A stretch of DNA of 64,000 nucleotides, taken from the NCBI RefSeq assembly GCF_900110085.1, contig NZ_FOCK01000004.1, positions 62,001 through 126,000 of the forward strand. The letters are read 5' to 3'. Under the pieces are notes generated by a model that saw only the letters and a list, made by a program, of their open reading frames with translations, was not told where the DNA came from and did no database searches. Numbering within the stretch: the stretch's first letter is position 1; every line of letters starts with the position of its first letter. Of this stretch, positions 2,920 through 63,135 are shown piece by piece. The position numbers and the translations under genes were made by a program. The DNA comes from Prevotella sp. ne3005. GTDB lineage: Bacteria > Bacteroidota > Bacteroidia > Bacteroidales > Bacteroidaceae.

Positions 2920-3028
2920 CAAACACCCCACACCCCACCAAAATCTCTCGGAAGCCCTTTGTTTACTAGGGGTTGAGCATGGTGGGGTGTTCGCAAACAC
3001 CCCACCAACACTACACCAACACCCCACC
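2920..3028. repeat. Left inverted repeat of the VirE element
   Basis: This ~109-bp stretch is the reverse complement of 4475-4583 with only a handful of differences. It begins CAAACACCCCACACCCCACC. It contains 11-bp units of the type AACACCCCACC and AACACTACACC, plus a near-perfect 26-bp palindrome at 2981-3006 (arms GGTGGGGTGTT; one mismatched position). Confidence 0.9.
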
Positions 3029-3143
3029 CTATCACCTCTGACATTGAAAATGTCGTTGAAGTACGATTCGCAAAGTTTTGTTAATTTTGGAATGTTTTGC
3101 CCAGATTTATTAGGAAATATTTGCAAATCGCGAAAAAATGTTG

Positions 3144-3151
3144 TATCTTTG
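3144..3151 (+). promoter_or_regulatory. -7 box TATCTTTG for the VirE/VapE gene
   Basis: TATCTTTG followed by CA lies 69 bases before the ATG, inside the inverted-repeat-bounded unit. Confidence 0.7.
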
Positions 3152-3219
3152 CACATTGAAAAACAGAGCTATGAGAAGCATGGCCTGAAACAGTAACCAA
3201 TTTAAAAATCTTTTAGTTA

Positions 3220-4458
3220 ATGAGTCAGGATTTGACAATCAATGGCGTAGCTGTATCAGCTTCGCAGCAGGGACCTCTCGCAGTTGAGGAGTTCCTTCAG
3301 GAGAACTACCTTTTTCGTAACAATGTGCTGAGCGGAAAGGTGGAATTCTTGGCTAAGCCAAGCGGCGAAGCCGAGCGTGCAATCGTGCCCTCTGAGGACG
3401 AGCCCCACTATCGTGTGCTCACTCAGGAGGCACTGAACAGTATCATTATCCGTGCCCGCAAGGAGCCGGCCTTCGAGAAGGTCAACCCCAAGCCGCTGAT
3501 CATGGAGTTGGTACATTCTGAAGAGGTACGCGCGTATGACCCCATACGCGACTATCTCGAGAAACTACCCAAGTGGGACGGCGAGAACCGCATTGCAAAG
3601 CTTTTCGGGCGCTTGCCTGGTATCAGCTCTGAGATGCAGAACTTCCTCACCATCTGGTTGCGCTCTGCTGTGGCCCACTGGCAGCAGATGGATACGCTTC
3701 ATGGAAACGAGTGTGTGCCTACGTTCATCGGAAGTCAGGGTTGTGGAAAGACCACTTTTGTGACCCGTTTGCTCCCTCTAGAGTTGCGCATGTACTTTCT
3801 GGACCATCTGAACCTTTCGAACAAGTTCGACAAGGAGATGGCCTTGACGAGCAACCTCCTTGTGAACCTCGACGAACTCGAGGCTATCCGCCCCAGCCAG
3901 CATGCGGCCTTGAAGCAGACGCTCTCTAAGAGTAAGGTGAATGGACGCCCCATCTATGGTTGTGCCCAGGAGGATCGACCCCGTTATGCCTCGTTTGTGG
4001 CAACCACCAACAATCCCCATCCATTGACGGATGCTACAGGCTCTCGTCGCTACATCTGCATCCAGATTCCAGACGGTATGTTGATAGACAATACGGGCGA
4101 GATTGATTATGAGCAGCTTTATGCCCAGGTGGTCTACGAGATTCGTGAACTGAAAGCCCCCTACTGGTTTAACCCCAACGAGGTGGCCCGTATTCAGGAA
4201 TTGAACCTCAACTACATGGAGCAGAAGGACATCGCTGAAGTCATTGAGGTCTGTATCCGCAAGCCCAAAGAGGGAGAGCAGGGAATCCGAATGAAGAGCG
4301 GGGATATCCTGAAGCTGATTCAGAAGGAATACCCCTCCATCAAGAGCGACCATAGCACGAAGGTGCATCTGGGATTGGCCTTGAAGGAACTGGGATTTGA
4401 GTGTAAGAACCATAGTAACCAGTCGTATTACAAGGTTGTCCCTGTGAAAGTAGCCTGA
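3220..4458 (+). CDS. VirE/VapE-family AAA+ ATPase (primase-helicase type)
   Basis: The 412-residue protein has a short N-terminal region, then a virulence-associated E type P-loop ATPase core. The core shows YLEKLPKWDGENRI before the Walker A motif GSQGCGKTTF (about residue 170), a Walker B-like LLVNLDEL (about 213), sensor TTNNPHPLTDATGSRRY with the arginine pair (about 262-275), and a C-terminal winged-helix-like tail. Proteins of this family occur in phages, satellites and Bacteroidetes genomes and resemble the helicase part of primase-helicases. It lacks the N-terminal BT4734-like domain that often precedes the ATPase. It sits alone between the inverted repeats 2920-3028 and 4475-4583, which makes it the only gene of that unit. 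A role in replication or transposition of the unit is inferred. Confidence 0.85.
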   Translation: MSQDLTINGVAVSASQQGPLAVEEFLQENYLFRNNVLSGKVEFLAKPSGEAERAIVPSEDEPHYRVLTQEALNSIIIRARKEPAFEKVNPKPLIMELVHSEEVRAYDPIRDYLEKLPKWDGENRIAKLFGRLPGISSEMQNFLTIWLRSAVAHWQQMDTLHGNECVPTFIGSQGCGKTTFVTRLLPLELRMYFLDHLNLSNKFDKEMALTSNLLVNLDELEAIRPSQHAALKQTLSKSKVNGRPIYGCAQEDRPRYASFVATTNNPHPLTDATGSRRYICIQIPDGMLIDNTGEIDYEQLYAQVVYEIRELKAPYWFNPNEVARIQELNLNYMEQKDIAEVIEVCIRKPKEGEQGIRMKSGDILKLIQKEYPSIKSDHSTKVHLGLALKELGFECKNHSNQSYYKVVPVKVA

Positions 4459-4474
4459 TTCTTTGGAATGAGAG

Positions 4475-4583
4475 TGGTGGGGTGTTGGTGTAGTGTTGGT
4501 GGGGTGTTTGCAAACACCCCACCATGCTCAACCCCAGTAAACAAAGGCCTTCCGAGAGATTTGGGTGGGGTGTGGGGTGTTTG
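4475..4583. repeat. Right inverted repeat of the VirE element
   Basis: This is the mirror copy of 2920-3028. It starts with three exact 11-bp units, GTGGGGTGTTG (4477-4487), GTGTAGTGTTG (4488-4498) and GTGGGGTGTTT (4499-4509), and contains a perfect 26-bp palindrome at 4498-4523 centred between 4510 and 4511. Confidence 0.9.
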
Positions 4584-4616: not shown

Positions 4617-4951
4617 TGTCCGTTTACAGGGAGTAAACCCAGAGTTCCCACGTTGGGAACTCAGAGAAACTCCTAGGCAAACTCCCAGTAATCCCGTAGC
4701 GGACTCAAGAGATTCTCCATCGGTTGTTCAGATAGTCTCTACGAGCTGTCCGAATAGTCTCTTACTCGTGTTCAGATAATCCCTATAGGGGTATGGAGAT
4801 AGTCTGAATGAACCGTTCGGAACGTCTGGACGAACCATAGATTACAGTGTGTGAAGAACTTCACAGCCATAACCCCTTCTATTCAAGACTTTTCATATTT
4901 ACCATTATGCAATTTGAATTATTTAACTTGAATTATGCGATTTGCATAATG
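4617..4951. repeat. Palindrome and 22-bp repeat block beside the VirE element
   Basis: No gene is visible here. The block holds GTTTAC-N5-GTAAAC (4622-4638), GAGTTCCCA-CGT-TGGGAACTC (4642-4662), three direct repeats at exact 22-bp spacing of the form GTTCAGATAGTCTCT (starts 4726, 4748, 4770), a GTTCG/CGAAC pair (4814-4834), GTGAAG-AA-CTTCAC (4851-4864), and CATTATGCAA/TTGCATAATG (4903-4951). Comparable blocks occur at 19.34-19.48 and 60.8-61.0 kb. Confidence 0.8.
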
Positions 4952-19065: not shown

Positions 19066-19237
19066 TTGTTTTACTTTAGCAGTCAACAACTCGACAATCC
19101 AAAGTTTGCATTCTTTATTGCGGTCTACTCTGTTGTAACTGTCCAGGAAGGCGTTCCCGACTGTGGCACAATTTCTGTACTATTTGTCCAAAGGGAGGCT
19201 AATATACTGATAACAAGCTGGTTGTACAAAGAACGAA

Positions 19238-19336
19238 CCCTACTTAAGCTCTACTTATGTTCTACATAAGTTCTACTTAAGTTCTACACAAGTTCTACTT
19301 AGGCTCTACTTAAGCCCTACCTGAACCCTACTAGAC
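19238..19336 (+). repeat. Iteron array A: nine 11-bp units, CTAC core
   Basis: Nine consecutive 11-bp units tile this stretch exactly: CCCTACTTAAG, CTCTACTTATG, TTCTACATAAG, TTCTACTTAAG, TTCTACACAAG, TTCTACTTAGG, CTCTACTTAAG, CCCTACCTGAA, CCCTACTAGAC. Each has CTAC at positions 3-6. The period of 11 bp is about one helical turn. An opposed array lies at 19546-19608. Confidence 0.9.
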
Positions 19337-19355
19337 ATTCAGTACTTCTTCGTAA

Positions 19356-19481
19356 CTTTAGACCGACTAAAGCCTAACTTAACTCGGAGTAAAGTCGGAC
19401 TTTACTCCGAGTAAACCTCTGAATTCTCTAGAGAATTGACGAGTTATATACCGACTAACTGGTAATCAACCGGTATATAAC
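19356..19481. repeat. Palindrome block between opposed iteron arrays
   Basis: The block holds CTTTAG-ACCGA-CTAAAG (19356-19372), a 31-bp palindrome with 15-bp perfect arms starting ACTCGGAGTAAAGTC (19382-19412), AATTCTCTAGAGAATT (19422-19437) and GTTATATACCG/CGGTATATAAC (19443-19481). No gene is visible from 19066 to 19763. Confidence 0.9.
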
Positions 19482-19545
19482 TATGACTTTAAACGTATAT
19501 AACAGGCAGTAAGCTGTAGTTTTGTTGGACTCAAACAGCGTTTTT

Positions 19546-19608
19546 GTAGGGTTTAAGTAGAACTTAAGTAGAGCCTAAGTAGAACTTAAGTAGAACTTTT
19601 AGTAGAAT
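19546..19608 (-). repeat. Iteron array B: opposed 11-bp units
   Basis: On the minus strand the units are TTCTACTTAAG, TTCTACTTAGG, CTCTACTTAAG, TTCTACTTAAA and CCCTACAAAAA, preceded by a slightly longer ATTCTACTAAAAG. The 22-bp pair at 19563-19584 is the exact reverse complement of 19293-19314 in array A. A further lone unit (GTAGGGTTC) lies at 19657-19665. Confidence 0.88.
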
Positions 19609-19763
19609 TTAAAAACCACACAAAAACCTGATTATAAACAAGATAACTTAATTTTTGTAGGGTTCAATCCGAGATTCCCAAAATTCACTACGGCTGATCT
19701 TTAGTGAGTGTCCATGCAGGGGTTGAAGGTACATACTTGATAGGTTGGGAAAGGGTTACTTAT

Positions 19764-56405: not shown

Positions 56406-56520
56406 CACCCGAAAGCATCAAGAGCAGTCATCTTCGGATGGACTCGCCAACCGAGCAAAACGTAGCCACGGTGGTTAGTACGATGCGGAAGCAATAGTAT
56501 TCACTTCAAAACAAAACGTT

Positions 56521-56778
56521 ATGCAACAGCACATTTATTACATCAAGTTTGCTCTGCGCTTCGCAGATATGCAGATTCTCGAGTTAGTAACAGTATTCAA
56601 CGCTCACGTGCAAAGCCGAAACTGGTCTAGTATGCGTTCTTATCATGATAAGGCGTTAGTGGATGAGTTCCTACAGAGAGGCATCGACGTATCATCAGTT
56701 TATGATGGCAAGGTTCTCTCCTTCGCCCATCCAGTCAAGTATGACCTACCCGACAACAAATTAATAGCCATCGGGTAA
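56521..56778 (+). CDS. Small uncharacterised protein, 85 residues
   Basis: The protein reads MQQHIYYIKFALRFADMQIL and VTVFNAHVQSRNWSSMRSYH, ending VKYDLPDNKLIAIG. It has no signal peptide, membrane helix or known motif. The clear promoter and codon use suggest a real gene of the mobile-element type. It converges with the HNH endonuclease gene 60 bases away. Confidence 0.65.
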   Translation: MQQHIYYIKFALRFADMQILELVTVFNAHVQSRNWSSMRSYHDKALVDEFLQRGIDVSSVYDGKVLSFAHPVKYDLPDNKLIAIG

Positions 56779-56838: not shown

Positions 56839-57834
56839 TTATCCCTTGAATACTGTACTACGATGATATTCTAAATATTTTGCGCGAGAATCATTTATGG
56901 GCAGGAATTGAAATAATTGATTCTCCTTTATACCTATGCGTTCTTTCACTTGGCGTGACAGCCAATTGGAAATTGTTACTCGCTTGTCAACTGTGAAAGT
57001 GATATAACCTCGATCAAACAATTTGTCATATAGTGGTGAAAGTATGAAGCCATTGTTGGGATCTATACGTTCCTGAGAGTCAGAGACCGCCCAAGGCTTA
57101 ATGTGGCTAGCAATTAACAAAGACTCTTCGTTAATCATGGTGATAGGACAAAACGGGCATTCTTCCAGTAATTTCCTGCGGTATTCATCCTGACCTTCAC
57201 GGCTATATCTTATTTGAGGTCTTGGTTCTACATAATCTTCTCGCACACCATAGAAAGGATCTTCATTTTCCTGTTTAATTGTCCCGTAGTTTTCGATAAA
57301 CGCTTTACGTTTCTCTATTTCTTCAAAATCAGCAAACAATTTCAGATAGAACATTGGTTGCCCGTTGTAATCAAGACGCATAGCAGAAATATAAGATACT
57401 AATGGCAGGGATATCTCACGTATCAGCTTATAGACTTTATCTGTTGAATTGACATATCCTCGCGAACCTGTAATTTGCGATTGTTCTTTGACCGTGAAAA
57501 CAACAATGCCTGATGGCAGCGCGTTAATCTTCTCCATTCGTTCTGACCACAACATCCGCATTTCATCTTTTCCTCTGTATTCTTGTGAGGGAGTTAAGTA
57601 TTCTGATTTAATGGCCAGCATATAGGCTTGTAAGTCTTGACGAAGCACAAAACATGTAGCTGTAAATCCAATCTCTCCAAAGAAACTCTCCATTTTGTCA
57701 CGAGATCCTACATACAGCTTTGCTTCACCATTACCATCACCCAATTTGTTTTTGGGCATTACCCAACTATCAGCAACGGTAATGGGCGTTTCGAAAGTAT
57801 CTTCAAACTTAAAGTTCTCCCCCTCAATAATCAT
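56839..57834 (-). CDS. HNH restriction endonuclease
   Basis: The 331-residue protein has an N-terminal recognition-type region and a C-terminal HNH domain: CPFCPITMINEESLLIASHI (Cys pair, His), KPWAVSDSQERIDPNNGFIL and SPLYDKLFDRGYITFT, as in HNH_2-type type II endonucleases. Its ATG overlaps the stop of the cytosine methyltransferase gene, so the two form a translationally coupled restriction-modification pair. The recognition site cannot be deduced. Confidence 0.87.
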   Translation of the reverse strand: MIIEGENFKFEDTFETPITVADSWVMPKNKLGDGNGEAKLYVGSRDKMESFFGEIGFTATCFVLRQDLQAYMLAIKSEYLTPSQEYRGKDEMRMLWSERMEKINALPSGIVVFTVKEQSQITGSRGYVNSTDKVYKLIREISLPLVSYISAMRLDYNGQPMFYLKLFADFEEIEKRKAFIENYGTIKQENEDPFYGVREDYVEPRPQIRYSREGQDEYRRKLLEECPFCPITMINEESLLIASHIKPWAVSDSQERIDPNNGFILSPLYDKLFDRGYITFTVDKRVTISNWLSRQVKERIGIKENQLFQFLPINDSRAKYLEYHRSTVFKG

Positions 57835-59138
57835 AATTGAATTCCGTATTTAGTAATGTCCATCTGTTTCAAAATAGCAATCAGCACATCGACAACTATA
57901 CTATTGCCTGCCTGTTGGTACATAGAGGTGTCCGAAACGACAATCTTGAATGTATCTTTGAAGCCCATCAGACGCAAACATTCCCTTGGAGTCAACTTAC
58001 GGATACGCCCTTTATGAGTAACATAGTTGTCTACGCCAGCCCTATGCATTTTGTGCATGGATTGCAGTAGCGGACGAGCTACATCTAGATCTGTTTCTGT
58101 CGAAGTTTTAAAGTTTTTGGTACCTCCTGCCAACACATAGCGTGCCACCTTATCCGACAAATAATACTTTTCTTCCACATCGTGTACATCGAAAACGAAT
58201 TCATCAAAAGCCTCGTCGGTAGGTGTCAATTCAGAATCTGGATGATACACAAAGTCACCATGCCAATTAAATTGCTGATTACGTTTCTGGCAAAGTTGAA
58301 TTTCTCCATTTATCTGAGTGTAGAACTTGTCATGGTTCTTATGGCTGGTCACAAACTTGATACCTTTCTCCTTAAGAAAATACTTAGTGTCAATATAGTC
58401 TTCTAAAAAATCGTACATCTTATATTCTAACTCAATCGGTGCGGGGAACTCAAACTTCGTCTTTTTCTTGAAGCCAAGACAATAAACGCGTTCACGATGC
58501 TGTGGTATGCCATAATCACAACTGTTCAACACACGGAACTTTACGTCGTATCCCAATTCATTGAAGATGTCGTACATTACATGCCAGGTACGTCCTTTAT
58601 CGTGATTAAGCAATCCACGTACATTTTCAAACAAGAACACCTTCGGCTGCGTTTCTTTTACCACACGGGCAAACTCATAAAACAACGTTCCACGAGCATC
58701 TTCAAAACCAAGGCGGTGACCCACCATAGAGAATGCTTGACAGGGCGCACCACCGATGACGAAATCTACATTTCCCTTATATCGGCGGGCATCGAAGTTG
58801 CGTATATCAGTAAACCAATCTTCCTCTTTAATGTCATAGTTTGCAAAATAGCTTTCCTTACATTTGGGTTCGATATCGCCAGCAAACATAATCCGATGCT
58901 TTAGCCCAAGGCGCTGGAAAGCGTGTTCAATAGCACCTATACCACTGAACACAGTCCCTATCCTAACAATGTTTCTTGGTTGAGAGAATTGTAAATCCTT
59001 CCACGATGGTCCTTCTGAAATCGGTGTTTGTGGTATCTGCTTTTTGTATTCCAGTGCCAACGCACGATCTTTTACGATGCGCTTTACTTCGTCTATCTTC
59101 TCTGAACTTTCGTTGATATCCTTTACTACTGTTGACAT
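57831..59138 (-). CDS. DNA (cytosine-5) methyltransferase
   Basis: The 435-residue enzyme methylates cytosine to protect the site cut by the downstream HNH nuclease. Motifs in order: SAM-binding GTVFSGIGAIEHAFQRLG, FAGDIEPKCKESY, FVIGGAPCQAFSMVG (catalytic Cys), KVFLFENVRGLLNHDKG (ENV), NSCDYGIPQHRERVYCLGF, and the C-terminal RKLTPRECLRLMGF and QQAGNSIVVDVL. The ATG at 59138 is preferred; the frame open to 59192 runs through an RNA stem. Confidence 0.93.
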   Translation of the reverse strand: MSTVVKDINESSEKIDEVKRIVKDRALALEYKKQIPQTPISEGPSWKDLQFSQPRNIVRIGTVFSGIGAIEHAFQRLGLKHRIMFAGDIEPKCKESYFANYDIKEEDWFTDIRNFDARRYKGNVDFVIGGAPCQAFSMVGHRLGFEDARGTLFYEFARVVKETQPKVFLFENVRGLLNHDKGRTWHVMYDIFNELGYDVKFRVLNSCDYGIPQHRERVYCLGFKKKTKFEFPAPIELEYKMYDFLEDYIDTKYFLKEKGIKFVTSHKNHDKFYTQINGEIQLCQKRNQQFNWHGDFVYHPDSELTPTDEAFDEFVFDVHDVEEKYYLSDKVARYVLAGGTKNFKTSTETDLDVARPLLQSMHKMHRAGVDNYVTHKGRIRKLTPRECLRLMGFKDTFKIVVSDTSMYQQAGNSIVVDVLIAILKQMDITKYGIQL

Positions 59139-59166
59139 AAAAAGCCCTCTCCTCGTTTCGAAAAGG

Positions 59167-59277
59167 GGGCGTGGAGAGATTGGTAGAAGCAAGGCTTAGG
59201 ACGGCCTACATCAGGCAACAATCGTATAGTCCACGCCCGTATGAGCGTAAACATCCGTTGCCTTGTCTGACTGATGT
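59167..59277 (-). promoter_or_regulatory. Candidate pseudoknotted leader of the methyltransferase gene
   Basis: Two stems interleave. Stem A pairs 59167-59175 (GGGCGTGGA) with 59230-59238. Stem B pairs 59208-59219 (ACATCAGGCAAC) with GTTGC at 59257-59261 plus CTGATGT at 59271-59277. A small AGGC/GCCT hairpin (59192-59207) lies inside. The order is that of an H-type pseudoknot or two alternative stems, about 30 bases before the methyltransferase ATG. Confidence 0.5.
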
Positions 59278-59766: not shown

Positions 59767-59852
59767 CAAAAAATTCTATTATCTTATTAAAATAAGGTGT
59801 AATTTAAATCAATTTTAACCGTCTGAGGCATATAATCCCACCTAAACGGCAA

Positions 59853-60647
59853 TTATTTCTCGCAGAGCCAGTATTCCGAGCAGCCGTTCACCATGCGATG
59901 CTTGAAGCCGAAACGATAATTATTCATCGACTTGCCCAAGACAGTGGGTGTCGCCCTTTTCGCATCAAAGTAGGCATAGCGGCTGGCAAAAGTAGAAAGG
60001 ATCTCCGTGGTTCCCCACCAACGGCCCTCGCCGTCTTTCGGCTTGCGGAAGGTCTCGTTGATCATCTCCACCAGATCGACGGTACGCTGGTAAGGCACGT
60101 TCTCCTCTATCAGCGTCTGTATCTCGTCATCTTCCAGCCAGAACCGTTCCCCATTATTAAACAGATGCAAGGCCTGGGCATAGAGCTGGCGATGGTTCAG
60201 ATTGTCAGTGAAGTCGATGTTCTTGCCAGCAGGAATGCCCACGCAGACGAATCGGCGGGAGCCAGTAGGATCAACCAGCGGTTGCAACTGATTGGTGGTT
60301 CCGATGAACGAGGTATAGCGCCTGTACTGCTTGATGGTCTTGCCGTAAGGCGGACGGAACTTCACATCGCTCGACGATAACAGGTACTTCAGCCCTTTCT
60401 GCATCTCCTTATAGTTCATGCATTCTGCGGCAAAGAGCAGACAAGGCAGGTTCACCGTATGCTTCGAGTCATCAAGGGTAATCTGTCCGTCAGGCAACCT
60501 CTGGGACTTATAGAACTGATAGTTCAAGCGAAGATCGAACACTTTGTCTTTTTCAGGATTCTCACGGATCATCTTTGCAATCTCCCTTAATTCAACGCGC
60601 TTTATGACCTCCTTCTTTCGCGCTATTTTCAACAAACTTACTTTCAA
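59853..60647 (-). pseudogene. Internally deleted BT4734-like/VapE gene
   Basis: The 264-residue frame begins, from a TTG start, with the BT4734-type N-terminus (MKVSLLKIARKKEVIKRVEL, REIAKMIRENPEKDKVFDLR). Near residue 75 it jumps to the late part of the VapE ATPase (MNYKEMQKGLKYLLSSSDVK, TSFIGTTNQLQPLVDPTGSR with the Arg pair) and the C-terminal winged helix. Walker A and Walker B are missing; the protein at 3220 has both. An in-frame internal deletion is the simplest reading, so ATPase activity is unlikely. It lies beside an iteron/palindrome block. Confidence 0.7.
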
Positions 60648-60696
60648 ATAAACGTTATTTTAGTTCTACCTCTACTAAATAATCACAAACTGCCTG

Positions 60697-60704
60697 CAAA
60701 TATA
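60697..60704 (-). promoter_or_regulatory. -7 box TATATTTG for the deleted VapE gene
   Basis: Minus-strand TATATTTGCAGG lies 50 bases before the TTG start, between two stray iterons (60662-60679) and the array at 60746. Confidence 0.6.
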
Positions 60705-60745
60705 CTGATTTTACTTGGTATTTGCAAGTTTTTCATTAGATTTTT

Positions 60746-60800
60746 ACCTCTACTTTACTTCTACTAAAGTTCTACTAAACCTCTACTAAACCTCTACTAT
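60746..60800 (+). repeat. Iteron array C: five 11-bp units
   Basis: ACCTCTACTTT, ACTTCTACTAA, AGTTCTACTAA, ACCTCTACTAA and ACCTCTACTAT tile 60746-60800 exactly. Two more CTAC units lie at 60662-60679 next to the gene. The opposed array D is at 61022-61076. Confidence 0.9.
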
Positions 60801-60814
60801 ATCTCTTCAAACTG

Positions 60815-60898
60815 AATAAGCGTTCCTTAACCAGCAATAAGGGCACCTTATTCTGCAATAAGGATGCCTTACTTGTCAATAAGTGCCTCTTATTCTTC
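60815..60898 (+). repeat. Four tandem 21-bp hairpin units
   Basis: Units start AATAAG at 60815, 60836, 60857 and 60878, exactly 21 bp apart. Each folds on itself (for example AATAAGG-GCA-CCTTATT), with the middle trinucleotides differing. Confidence 0.88.
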
Positions 60899-60926
60899 AG
60901 GTCATAAAGCCTCTGGCTCAGTATTT

Positions 60927-60987
60927 ATTCCCACCTTGGGAATGTTTTATTCCCAGGCTGGGAACATTTCATTCCCAAGGTGGGAAT
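60927..60987. repeat. Three TTCCCA-N3-TGGGAA palindromes
   Basis: ATTCCCA-CCT-TGGGAAT (60927-60943), ATTCCCA-GGC-TGGGAAC (60949-60965) and ATTCCCA-AGG-TGGGAAT (60971-60987). The first and third are exact reverse complements of each other. The same core occurs at 4645-4659 and 63120-63134. Confidence 0.92.
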
Positions 60988-61021
60988 AATTGTTACCTTT
61001 ACTATAAAAGTACACAAAGCA

Positions 61022-61076
61022 GTAGAGGTTTGGTAGAGGATAAGTAGAGGATAAGTAGATGATTAGTAGATGTATA
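61022..61076 (-). repeat. Iteron array D: five opposed 11-bp units
   Basis: GTAGAGGTTTG, GTAGAGGATAA, GTAGAGGATAA, GTAGATGATTA and GTAGATGTATA tile 61022-61076 exactly, in the opposite orientation to array C. Confidence 0.9.
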
Positions 61077-61147
61077 ATTTCATCCAAACTACTAATATAC
61101 ATCAACTTACGCAGTATTTGTAGATGTAAACTGTATTCTCCATTATA

Positions 61148-61597
61148 TTATACCAGCTCTAACTGTTCACGGACTACGTAGATTGACTCATTCAGCAACT
61201 CTGATGCCTTGGAAAAGCTTATCAGTTCAGATGCCAAGGCACGATAAACCAGGCTACTAAAACGATTAAACTTTTCTTCGTGGAAGGTGCTCTTCTCAAC
61301 CTGTTCCCTGAATGCTTGATTCTTGTTCTTTGTAATACAAAAATACTTATAGCGCGACTCGCTAATTATGCCCAGCTGCTTTGCTTTGAACATCTGAGCT
61401 TCTACTGATATACCATAATTAGATTGAATAGCCCGAAGTTCGTTCAAAGAAATGTCGTGGCGAGATACACCCAACAACTTCTTAAATACATCCTGAGATA
61501 TCAGCATTTCGTTGGCAAATAGATTGCAGAAGCGCTCAACATCCTTTTGTGGGAGAGTGTCATCAAAGTCAAGCAACAAATGTCCCAGTTCATGCAT
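61148..61597 (-). pseudogene. ImmA/IrrE metallopeptidase, 5'-truncated
   Basis: The 149-residue frame from ATG begins MHELGHLLLDFDD (HExxH zinc site) and continues CNLFANEMLISQDVFKKLLG and GISVEAQMFKAKQLGIISES, the C-terminal half of an ImmA/IrrE-type peptidase. Homologous residues continue upstream of the ATG (FPVERKRFTAMHELGH), so translation cannot properly begin there, and an in-frame stop lies near 61650. The N-terminal HTH and start of the domain are lost. Such proteins control mobile elements by cleaving repressors. Confidence 0.7.
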
Positions 61598-61671
61598 AGC
61601 GGTAAAGCGCTTACGCTCAACAGGAAAGCTTAATGGGCGGGAAATAAATCATAAAATAATTGCAGAAATTA

Positions 61672-61704
61672 GAGTTTTCTCTTGGAATTTCGAAAGAAAA
61701 CTCT
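61672..61704. promoter_or_regulatory. Inverted repeat before the AAA_15 ATPase gene
   Basis: GAGTTTTCT and AGAAAACTC arms enclose ~14 bases directly upstream of the -7 box. GCAGAAATT is repeated on both sides. An operator is likely. Confidence 0.5.
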
Positions 61705-61712
61705 TATTTTTG
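61705..61712 (+). promoter_or_regulatory. -7 box TATTTTTG for the AAA_15 ATPase gene
   Basis: TATTTTTGCAG lies 31 bases before the ATG at 61744. Confidence 0.65.
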
Positions 61713-61743
61713 CAGAAATTTCACAAATAAGCGAGTTATCTTT

Positions 61744-62961
61744 ATGATTATCCAATTTTCTGTTGAGAATTTCCGCTCTATTATGGAGCCTGCCACTCTG
61801 TCGTTGGTAGCATCACCACTTAAAGATGCTCGCGTTGCGGCAGAGGATGTGATGTTCGACATTGACGGAATGGATGTCAGTCTCTTAAAGAGTGCTGTCA
61901 TTTTAGGTGCCAACGCTTCAGGCAAGAGTAACGTTATAAAGGCTCTCGATTTCTTCAAGAGCTATATTATTGATTCATTTAAGAATCTGCAAGCTGGGGA
62001 GGAGATTGGCGTTGAAGCGTTTAAACTGAATACAGATAGTGCCAAGGCACCCAGTTCTTTTGAGATGATATTCATTCTGGATGGGTACCAATATCGTTAT
62101 GGCATGGATGTCAGCCGTGAGTCTGTGCATGGCGAATGGCTGTATAGGAAAGCCTGTCGTAAGAGAGCCAAGGAGGTGGAATTGTTTTTCCGTGAAGGAG
62201 AGGAAATGAAAGTCCATACATCTTTCTCAATCGCTACTGACTTAGTGAACAGGAAGATGATACGCAACAATGCCCTCCTGCTTTCTGCCGCAGCTCAGTT
62301 TAACGACCCTACTGCAGTTCAGATTATCAATTGGCTTGGGGAAACAACCATCCTTACATGCTCTGACGAAGAAAGGATGTGGAATATGGCCGTAAATCAT
62401 CTTGACGATGTAGAGATGCGGTCAAGAATCGTGGAATTTTCCAAGTTTGCCGACCTTGGTATTGAGGATATAGAGAAAAGTGACAATCACATCCTTAGCC
62501 GACATCTGCAGTATGACACAAATGGAGCGGCAAAAGGTGAAACCAGCTTCCCATTCCTGAGCATGGAATCGGAAGGAACCATCAAGTACTTCTCTATGGC
62601 TTACCCTATCATCAAGGCTCTTGACAACGGATCGAGACTTGTCATTGATGAGTTCGACTCCAAACTGCATCCGGTTCTGACAAATCGGATTATCTCTCTG
62701 TTTAATTCTCGCGAAACCAATCCACGAAACGCTCAGTTGATACTAACGGCACACGACACCAACATCCTCAGTTCTGGTTTATTCCGTCGTGATCAAATCT
62801 GGTTCACCCAGAAAAATCGATTTGGAGCCACCTCTCTCTATTCTTTGTCAGACTATAAAGTCAGAAGTGATGCTCCTTTCGAAAAGGATTATCTCAGTGG
62901 TAAATATGGAGCCACACCCATTATCGGTAATCTGGAGTCAGTATTAAGGAGGGCAGAGTGA
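61744..62961 (+). CDS. AAA_15/AAA_21-type ATPase (RloA/AriA-like)
   Basis: The 405-residue protein starts MIIQFSVENFRSIMEPATLS and has an ABC/SMC-like ATPase with Walker A ILGANASGKSNVIKAL (about 53), the signature region LSMESEGTIKYFSM, Walker B RLVIDEFDSKLHP and the switch His LTAHDTNIL. The family includes the ATPases of RloAB and PARIS-type defence, usually followed by a TOPRIM or RloB effector. No partner gene follows: the candidate right attachment repeat begins 62 bases downstream. The start at 61744 gives the family N-terminus; the longer frame crosses the promoter. Confidence 0.85.
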   Translation: MIIQFSVENFRSIMEPATLSLVASPLKDARVAAEDVMFDIDGMDVSLLKSAVILGANASGKSNVIKALDFFKSYIIDSFKNLQAGEEIGVEAFKLNTDSAKAPSSFEMIFILDGYQYRYGMDVSRESVHGEWLYRKACRKRAKEVELFFREGEEMKVHTSFSIATDLVNRKMIRNNALLLSAAAQFNDPTAVQIINWLGETTILTCSDEERMWNMAVNHLDDVEMRSRIVEFSKFADLGIEDIEKSDNHILSRHLQYDTNGAAKGETSFPFLSMESEGTIKYFSMAYPIIKALDNGSRLVIDEFDSKLHPVLTNRIISLFNSRETNPRNAQLILTAHDTNILSSGLFRRDQIWFTQKNRFGATSLYSLSDYKVRSDAPFEKDYLSGKYGATPIIGNLESVLRRAE

Positions 62962-63118: not shown

Positions 63119-63135
63119 GTTCCCATGGTGGGAAC
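63119..63135. repeat. Lone TTCCCA-N3-TGGGAA palindrome
   Basis: GTTCCCA-TGG-TGGGAAC lies just outside the right 43-bp repeat. It shares its core with the palindromes at 4642 and 60927-60987. Confidence 0.75.

Follow-up and report, generated by a model that had tools for sequence, protein, structure and literature searches.

Facing 11-bp iteron arrays 5′ of PriRep-type genes in Prevotella: a putative replication-origin module of a small chromosomal element

Facing arrays of 11-bp iterons regularly sit 5′ of PriRep-type genes, and one such array block lies at 60662-61131 of the window (the whole 64-kb stretch of Prevotella DNA that was analyzed). In our judgement, this block is probably the module from which a small element of the chromosome replicates, the sole constant gene of that element encoding a PriRep-type initiator-helicase. 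By sequence, the element looks like a tiny unit of one gene that has spread among rumen Prevotella. Our best reading is that the origin is organized much like PICI origins, yet belongs to an element that has a single gene and carries neither integrase nor packaging genes. With these arrays, a very common Bacteroidota gene family gains a concrete, directly testable DNA partner.

The repeat block and its adjoining gene

A first-pass annotation, made from the sequence alone, had described two facing arrays, C (five units plus two strays) and D (five units), around four 21-bp tandem hairpins and three TTCCCA-N3-TGGGAA palindromes, two of which would be mutual reverse complements. These parts were recovered (Table 1), with some refinement. 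The CTAC cores of array C (60750, 60761, 60772, 60783, and 60794) follow each other in exact 11-bp steps, and the two strays form a regular outer iteron pair that recurs in several relatives. Besides the five GTAG cores of array D (61022, 61033, 61044, 61055, and 61066), a sixth core, overlooked in the annotation, is found at 61120. The four hairpins are imperfect, and, among the palindromes (60928, 60950, and 60972), it is the first and the third that are mutual reverse complements. Two further palindromes of this type occur in the window, at 4645 (approximately 60 bp past an inverted repeat of locus 1) and at 63120 (downstream of an AbiLi-like gene).

The two-strand 11-bp array score of the locus was 7.5, while the maximum among 500 dinucleotide-preserving shuffles was 0. 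In a lag-11 scan of the whole window, no arrays other than those of this locus and locus 2 rose above the threshold, with locus 1 staying below it. Chance repeats as the source of the arrays are ruled out by the shuffles together with the background windows and period controls given below, and a purely local oddity is ruled out by similar arrays upstream of relatives in the same genome and in other genomes.

Table 1. Features of the window and their coordinates.
Feature	Coordinates	Strand	Description
Locus 1 element	2920-4583	+	Short VapE gene between 116-bp inverted repeats
Locus 2, putative solo origin unit	19233-19666	.	Arrays of GTTCTACTTAA units that face each other, with hairpins and a single AATTCTCTAGAGAATT palindrome (19422)
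VapE/PriRep remnant, 264 aa	59853-60647	-	Partial PF05272 match and alignment to intact L102
Outer iteron pair, gene side (the former "strays")	60664-60679	+	Cores at 60666 and 60672; counterpart in relatives
Spacer between outer iterons and array C	60680-60745	.	AT-richness measured in relatives, this locus being outside that set
Array C	60746-60800	+	Five CCTCTACTAAA iterons at a period of 11 bp
Four tandem 21-bp imperfect hairpins	60815-60898	.	AATAAG...CTTATT type
Three TTCCCA-N3-TGGGAA palindromes	60924-60990	.	22-bp spacing
Array D	61021-61076	-	Five iterons at a period of 11 bp, in the opposite orientation to array C
Spacer between array D and far outer iteron	61077-61115	.	Assigned by position
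Far outer iteron (core 61120) and end of the horizontally shared segment	61116-61131	-	Homology to L102 ends here

The array block lies directly 5′ of a gene that starts 17 bp from the outer iteron pair. Its labeling as a VapE-family remnant was correct, since a partial PF05272 match (E 5.8e-21) covers profile positions 109-212 of 217. Compared with L102, an intact 708-aa initiator-helicase from another species, the remnant consists of the first ~88 and the last ~200 residues; 444 codons, comprising the BT4734-like domain and the Walker A region, are missing in frame, and the alignment to L102 reveals an overlap of ~10 bp at the deletion junction.

The segment common to this locus and L102 corresponds to window positions 59852-61131; one end falls within the stop codon, the other shortly beyond the far outer iteron, and the sequences on either side are unrelated. 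Identity amounts to 96.1% across 543 bp and 92.1% across 762 bp, the noncoding array block included, while gyrB of the two genomes is 79% identical. Because a DNA identity of 92-96% thus links this locus to an element in a species with only 79% gyrB identity, the copy was evidently acquired horizontally; it lost the 444 codons in frame later. A second pair, L084 and L092, shares 88% identity across 3335 bp, a stretch that begins on the HU side and ends precisely at the stop codon. At the level of these alignments, gene and array block are seen to move between species as one segment.

The segment common to L102 and the present locus holds the array block and the gene alone, without an integrase, excision, repressor, or packaging gene, and no integrase was found in a Pfam scan of the genes neighboring the remnant. 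Defense-type genes surround the locus at 56839-59192 and 61148-62961 (an HNH endonuclease paired with a C5 methyltransferase, a fragment of an IrrE-like peptidase, and an AbiLi-like ATPase), and fall outside the common segment. A SAM-I/IV riboswitch is located at 56410-56523 on the + strand (Rfam, 55.4 bits).

Co-occurrence of arrays and genes across genomes

Of 100 genomes sampled from the genus, 62 encode the BT4734-like N-terminal domain (PF08800), with up to 21 matches per genome. For a first set of 38 rows, chosen by the BT4734-like domain or VapE and with one locus counted twice, the upstream kilobase was examined: the best lag (range 7-30) was or included 11 or 22 in 25 rows versus 1 of 38 for coding DNA. 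Among the 29 rows most similar to L019 (again with one locus counted twice), 24 exhibited facing period-11 arrays, and the same rows passed at periods 9, 10, 12, 13, and 14 in 0, 2, 0, 0, and 0 cases. Background was represented by 546 windows covering 280 kb of the same genome, of which 2 overlapping ones passed at period 11; both correspond to a single low-complexity site, which scores above the cutoff at periods 9 and 12 as well. At periods 9, 10, 12, 13, and 14, the numbers of passing background windows were 4, 0, 4, 0, and 10.

A second set comprised at least 80 loci from named genomes, nearly all titled Prevotella, Prevotellaceae, or Xylanibacter and mostly rumen metagenome assemblies; it overlaps the first set, as seen from contigs of equal length in both, and hence is not independent of it. 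The two-strand period test was applied to the 76 loci with at least 600 bp of upstream sequence. Among the matches listed, 59 of these 76 loci harbored facing period-11 arrays and 17 missed the strict test, while periods 8, 9, 10, 12, 13, and 14 passed in 13, 0, 4, 1, 0, and 0 loci, the 13 passes at period 8 being ascribed to close outer iteron pairs. Furthermore, again among the matches listed, a best lag of 11 or 22 was obtained for 65 of the 76 upstream regions versus 6 of 76 coding controls. The question raised by the first-pass annotation, whether VapE genes co-occur with 11-bp arrays, is thus answered positively (59/76 listed loci and 24/29 rows versus 2/546 background windows). By the array test, more distant branches of the family are mostly devoid of 11-bp arrays.

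The layout around the arrays recurs as well. In many elements, a close pair of outer iterons with 8-bp spacing lies 55 or 66 bp beyond the array. The mean AT content in 26 relatives, a set that does not include the present locus, amounts to 75% and 74% in the outer spacers, 67% and 68% in the arrays, and 60% in the center, with a background of 51%, so that the AT-richest parts are situated outside the arrays and not between them. A AATTCTCTAGAGAATT palindrome is present in 40 of the 80 listed loci and occurs twice in 31 of them, with a spacing of 65 bp in 29 and 66 bp in 2; the center of the present locus is devoid of it and has the TTCCCA type in its place. Beyond the far array, an HU-like gene (PF18291), transcribed away from the unit, was found at 9 of 20 loci (query locus counted). 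The unit of HU gene, putative origin, and VapE gene adjoins folD in two genomes and is absent from five other folD loci that were fetched.

Searches for a free form covered phage and plasmid records as well as viral contigs. Neither an ordinary prophage origin nor an ordinary plasmid origin matched: full-length relatives in phage records are at best ~31-35% identical and all 459 stay below 60%, as do all 77 relatives in plasmid records. A single-protein scan of viral contigs yielded no match, and an alignment scan retained 80 of 126 relatives, among which three align along most of the protein with 35-36% identity. Across these searches, a free circular, phage, or plasmid form was not encountered at more than ~37% identity. 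Six phage or plasmid loci were examined for periodicity; the best lag included 22 in four of them (L067, tied with 10, as well as L069, L070, and L072), and lag 11 was best in none. It should be noted that some B. finegoldii "plasmid" records look chromosomal from their gene content. Synteny around the loci did not reveal a clean empty site, and is unusable for this purpose because the genes near the loci differ in order from one species to another. The multi-copy elements of genome G024 were rejected as a guide to element ends, being embedded in larger repeats (>6 kb) and leaving the ends undefined. An intergenic stretch of ~60-100 bp at L019:5810-5921 is present in many copies in the related genomes searched.

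Units without a gene and alternative readings

The genome from which the window derives encodes 11 VapE-domain genes, and the upstream DNA of all 11 was read. Besides the present locus (CCTCTACTAAA), the two-array design is seen at L012 (word AACCCTACTTA), L014 (word GCCTACATAAA), and L019 (CGACATTCATC-like word), while L015 has two units of GCCGTCACCCA per side. At L013, L016, and L021, iteron-like words occur on both sides of a short gene that lacks the BT4734-like domain; at L017, L018, and L020, there is no clear 11-bp array, and inverted repeated words around the gene were recognized by eye only. According to Pfam, the intact relatives L012, L014, L015, L019, and L270 carry both PF08800 and PF05272.

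In the same genome, the AATTCTCTAGAGAATT palindrome occurs 18 times, and its reversed control 0 times. The 18 sites group into eight pairs, each spaced by exactly 65 bp, plus two single sites, and, therefore, into ten loci, of which three (L012, L014, and L019) carry the gene; the remaining seven, locus 2 included, consist of facing iteron arrays without it. A tblastn search with eight relatives (E up to 1) did not detect a VapE remnant at any of these seven, its matches being short or weak (best E 0.12); likewise, neither a VapE gene nor, in this search, a remnant is present at locus 2 (~19.2-19.7 kb). We infer that the solo units are origin-only copies of the gene-bearing kind.

This bears on the earlier proposal that the three loci of the window form one family of VapE-type ATPase, 11-bp iterons, and palindromes. 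The family is real, and arrays do accompany the gene; however, the gene is absent from the seven solo units including locus 2, and locus 1 is laid out differently, with 116-bp inverted repeats flanking a short VapE gene. That gene (3220-4458, 412 aa) lacks the BT4734-like domain, the inverted repeats (2920-3034 and 4469-4583) are 94.8% identical and carry ACACCCCACCA-type iterons, and the same genome holds a second copy of the element, with 96.9% identity across 985 bp. In this second copy (L021:5503-6735), the 5′ part of the gene is missing and the flanks, judged by eye, look mutually inverted beyond the repeats.

Pairwise comparisons delimit the solo units. L014 and L118 are 78% identical over 659 bp, L014 and L121 82% over 650 bp, and L118 and L121 81% over 671 bp, with homology beginning and ending at the outer iterons and unrelated flanks. 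Solo units of the GCCTACAT type have terminal inverted repeats and sharp ends, and the homology between L019 and L120 exceeds one outer iteron by ~90 bp (shared hairpins). Moreover, L117 (3640-4370) is a chimera, the left half of which is L019-type (CGACATTC array) and the right half L014-type (GCCTACAT array), joined in the palindrome-rich center, which suggests an exchange between different elements. For L117, L118, L120, and L121, the iteron words have their match at two intact genes of this genome, L014 and L019. Short stretches beside the solo unit of L119 (3412-3772) match another species (G032:C41) at 90-98% with the middle missing, and possibly represent another small mobile repeat.

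Comparable units were identified elsewhere. Genome G088 harbors eight palindrome pairs at 65 bp, three of which adjoin the gene (L027, L101, and L106); of the remaining five, three were read, and by eye these display the same solo design. Across the 100 genomes, PF08800 is found in 19 of 20 with the palindrome versus 43 of 80 without it (Fisher p 0.0005). As a stand-alone marker, the palindrome was nonetheless rejected: this 16-bp sequence has 21 copies in G077 and 29 in G038 (L137-L139), and three of the 21 G077 sites were read and lack 11-bp arrays, so that another repeat also appears to use AATTCTCTAGAGAATT.

The arrays could alternatively be transposon ends, with the outer iterons as termini, the VapE-type protein (together with a host enzyme) moving the unit, and the solo units being MITE-like and moved in trans. 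Like a DNA transposon or MITE, the GCCTACAT-type solo units and locus 1 have terminal inverted repeats with sharp ends; the ~600-bp units of L014, L118, and L121 (78-82% identity) begin and end at outer iteron pairs within unrelated flanks, the inverted repeats of locus 1 (94.8% identical) and its second copy fit a transposing unit, and L117 combines the left half of one type with the right half of another. However, the main type has its gene outside the symmetric unit and not between the ends, and homology between L019 and L120 overruns one outer iteron. Among 10 sites inspected for target duplication, 8 lack a flanking direct repeat of at least 4 bp and the other two have TATTTT and TTTT, with nothing consistent. 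In addition, Pfam detects no nuclease domain, and hence no transposase with one, as the proteins match only primase-, helicase-, and DUF-type families, and synteny provided no clean empty site. Taken together, we regard transposon ends as an unlikely explanation.

The adjacency of the gene-side outer iterons to the gene start is what autoregulation would predict, and iteron initiators of plasmids are known to autoregulate as well. The array block might, on this account, be a set of operators through which the protein represses its own promoter, with no role in replication. Yet seven units of the same genome have no such gene alongside, the far array is hundreds of bases away from the promoter, and a layout of two symmetric arrays with paired palindromes (spaced by 65 bp in 29 of 31 pairs from the listed loci) exceeds what operators need, which makes a purely regulatory role most improbable. 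Only slightly less remote is the idea that the host keeps solo origins and disabled copies as decoys that, by titrating the initiator of an incoming element whose iterons are the same, confer immunity of the incompatibility type. The present locus does retain both arrays next to a gene with a deleted ATPase motif, and the matches of the L117, L118, L120, and L121 words to intact L014 and L019 would suit this idea, but decay and parasitic copying would leave the same pattern, and we consider decoys highly unlikely.

The putative origin and its initiator

We favor reading the unit as a replication origin because of its iterons phased to a single helix face, adjoining AT-rich stretches, central hairpins, and the PriRep-type helicase encoded next door. 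The first-pass annotation knew of no described system with such a layout; a precedent does exist in PICI origins, in which two iteron sets flank an AT-rich central region beside the pri-rep primase-helicase gene and which, according to the accessible part of the report, were shown to drive plasmid replication (PMC6092414). As in PICIs and SaPIs, two iteron sets lie beside a primase-helicase gene (59/76 listed loci and the present locus), the iterons are element-specific, and the closest solved relative of the initiator is PriRep1 (7pds). In contrast to the PICI arrangement described there, the AT-rich parts are located outside the arrays (75% and 74% versus 60% in the center) instead of between the iteron sets, and the putative origin lies 5′ of the gene, whereas in Gram-positive PICIs it lies 3′ (PMC6092414, accessible part). 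Furthermore, the segment common to this locus and L102 has no integrase, attachment site, excision, repressor, or packaging genes, and the element differs in its dispersed, apparently origin-only copies and its hairpin-rich center. Because that segment lacks integrase, repressor, and packaging genes and because of where its AT-rich parts lie, the element is not considered a PICI.

Iteron plasmid origins, including the RSF1010 type with its RepB′ primase, likewise combine tandem iterons, an AT-rich stretch, and hairpins, and the hairpins of RSF1010 serve as primase sites; here, in contrast, the unit is chromosomal, the arrays face each other, and initiator and primase fold are united in one protein. 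The BrickBuilt and PINSR repeats of Porphyromonas and Prevotella are also short, dispersed intergenic units. However, BrickBuilt elements, tandem repeats with inverted ends, are described in the accessible part of PMC4596501 with 23-nt units and 12-bp IS5-like ends, and PINSRs, in that of PMC4755523, without terminal inverted repeats, as opposed to the 11-bp iterons and matching initiator gene here. The BT4734-like archaeo-eukaryotic primase family, to which PF08800 and PF05272 connect the intact relatives (the present remnant keeping part of PF05272), is named in PMC5862659, the accessible part of which makes no mention of an origin, iterons, or solo copies for it. Within the literature searched, which left most subscription papers and preprints outside its scope and in part comprised partial texts, no description of the element or of solo origins was found.

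Replication, iteron binding, and the mode of moving are what we infer from this organization. As proposed, the initiator would comprise a BT4734-like primase fold, a VapE/SF3-type helicase, and a C-terminal winged-helix-like domain. It would bind the iterons through the C-terminal domain, perhaps together with the N-terminal ~85 residues, melt the AT-rich spacers beside the arrays, and load itself as a helicase onto the hairpin-rich center, from which bidirectional synthesis would start; an HU-like protein, encoded beside some copies, may help to bend the DNA. The present locus would be a disabled copy that arrived horizontally with an intact-looking origin and then lost Walker A in frame, and, with this motif deleted, could fire only given a matching initiator from elsewhere. 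It is conceivable, though doubtful, that this is a mobile element new in kind, with the replication origin as the transferable unit, iteron arrays that double as element ends, and a primase-fold/helicase initiator that copies the unit without a recombinase of its own, solo origins being spread in trans by a shared iteron word. Lone chromosomal origins raise the question of whether an initiator made elsewhere could fire chromosomal replication, copy the unit to new sites, or block a competing element.

By both sequence and fold, the closest solved protein is 7pds, PriRep1 with dsDNA (phmmer E 5.4e-9; Foldseek E 4.2e-6), which we take to come from a SaPI, followed by RepB′ primase (E 2.6e-3; Foldseek rank 7) and NrS-1 PrimPol (E 0.08). 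The fold model of the whole protein is of low quality (mean pLDDT 69.6, pTM 0.37, poor helicase core) and was therefore used just for the N-terminal part and, cautiously, the C-terminal end. The latter is predicted, with modest confidence (pLDDT 68-84), to form two helices and a β-hairpin in the manner of a winged helix; the matches to forkhead (winged-helix) structures that the fold search gave had E >1 and were discounted as evidence. At the primase-motif positions, the proteins read E-x-N and S-V-K, invariant in 28 sequences (A2 positions 95-97 and 129-131), and thereby deviate from the canonical AEP motifs I and II, given as D-x-D/E and s-x-H in the accessible part of PMC5862659. Because of these replacements, the ability to prime may be lost, and the primase-fold domain has perhaps turned into a DNA-binding part. 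PADLOC matched an intact relative to a PrimPol and an RT-associated model, which was taken as domain kinship only and not as defense-gene identity.

The iteron word differs from element to element, and iteron distance correlates with whole-protein distance (r=0.61, 31 elements, 0 of 2000 permutations). When whole-protein distance was allowed for in these 31 elements, the correlation stayed positive only for the N-terminal ~100 and the C-terminal ~90 residues and, weakly, for ~255-345. In a second set of 51 elements, which passed the array test, were long enough, and were <95% identical, partial correlations were 0.44 for the C-terminal and 0.34 for the N-terminal columns; among 500 rate-matched sets of middle columns (mean 0.12, sd 0.12, maximum 0.43), none reached the C-terminal value, by a narrow margin. 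The top 100 column pairs included 28 from the C-terminal part (14% expected), 15 from the N-terminal part (21% expected), and 57 from the middle (65% expected). The iteron word thus varies with the C-terminal domain of the protein narrowly beyond rate-matched controls, and element-specific iteron words with their matching C-terminal domains constitute a natural data set for a DNA-recognition code.
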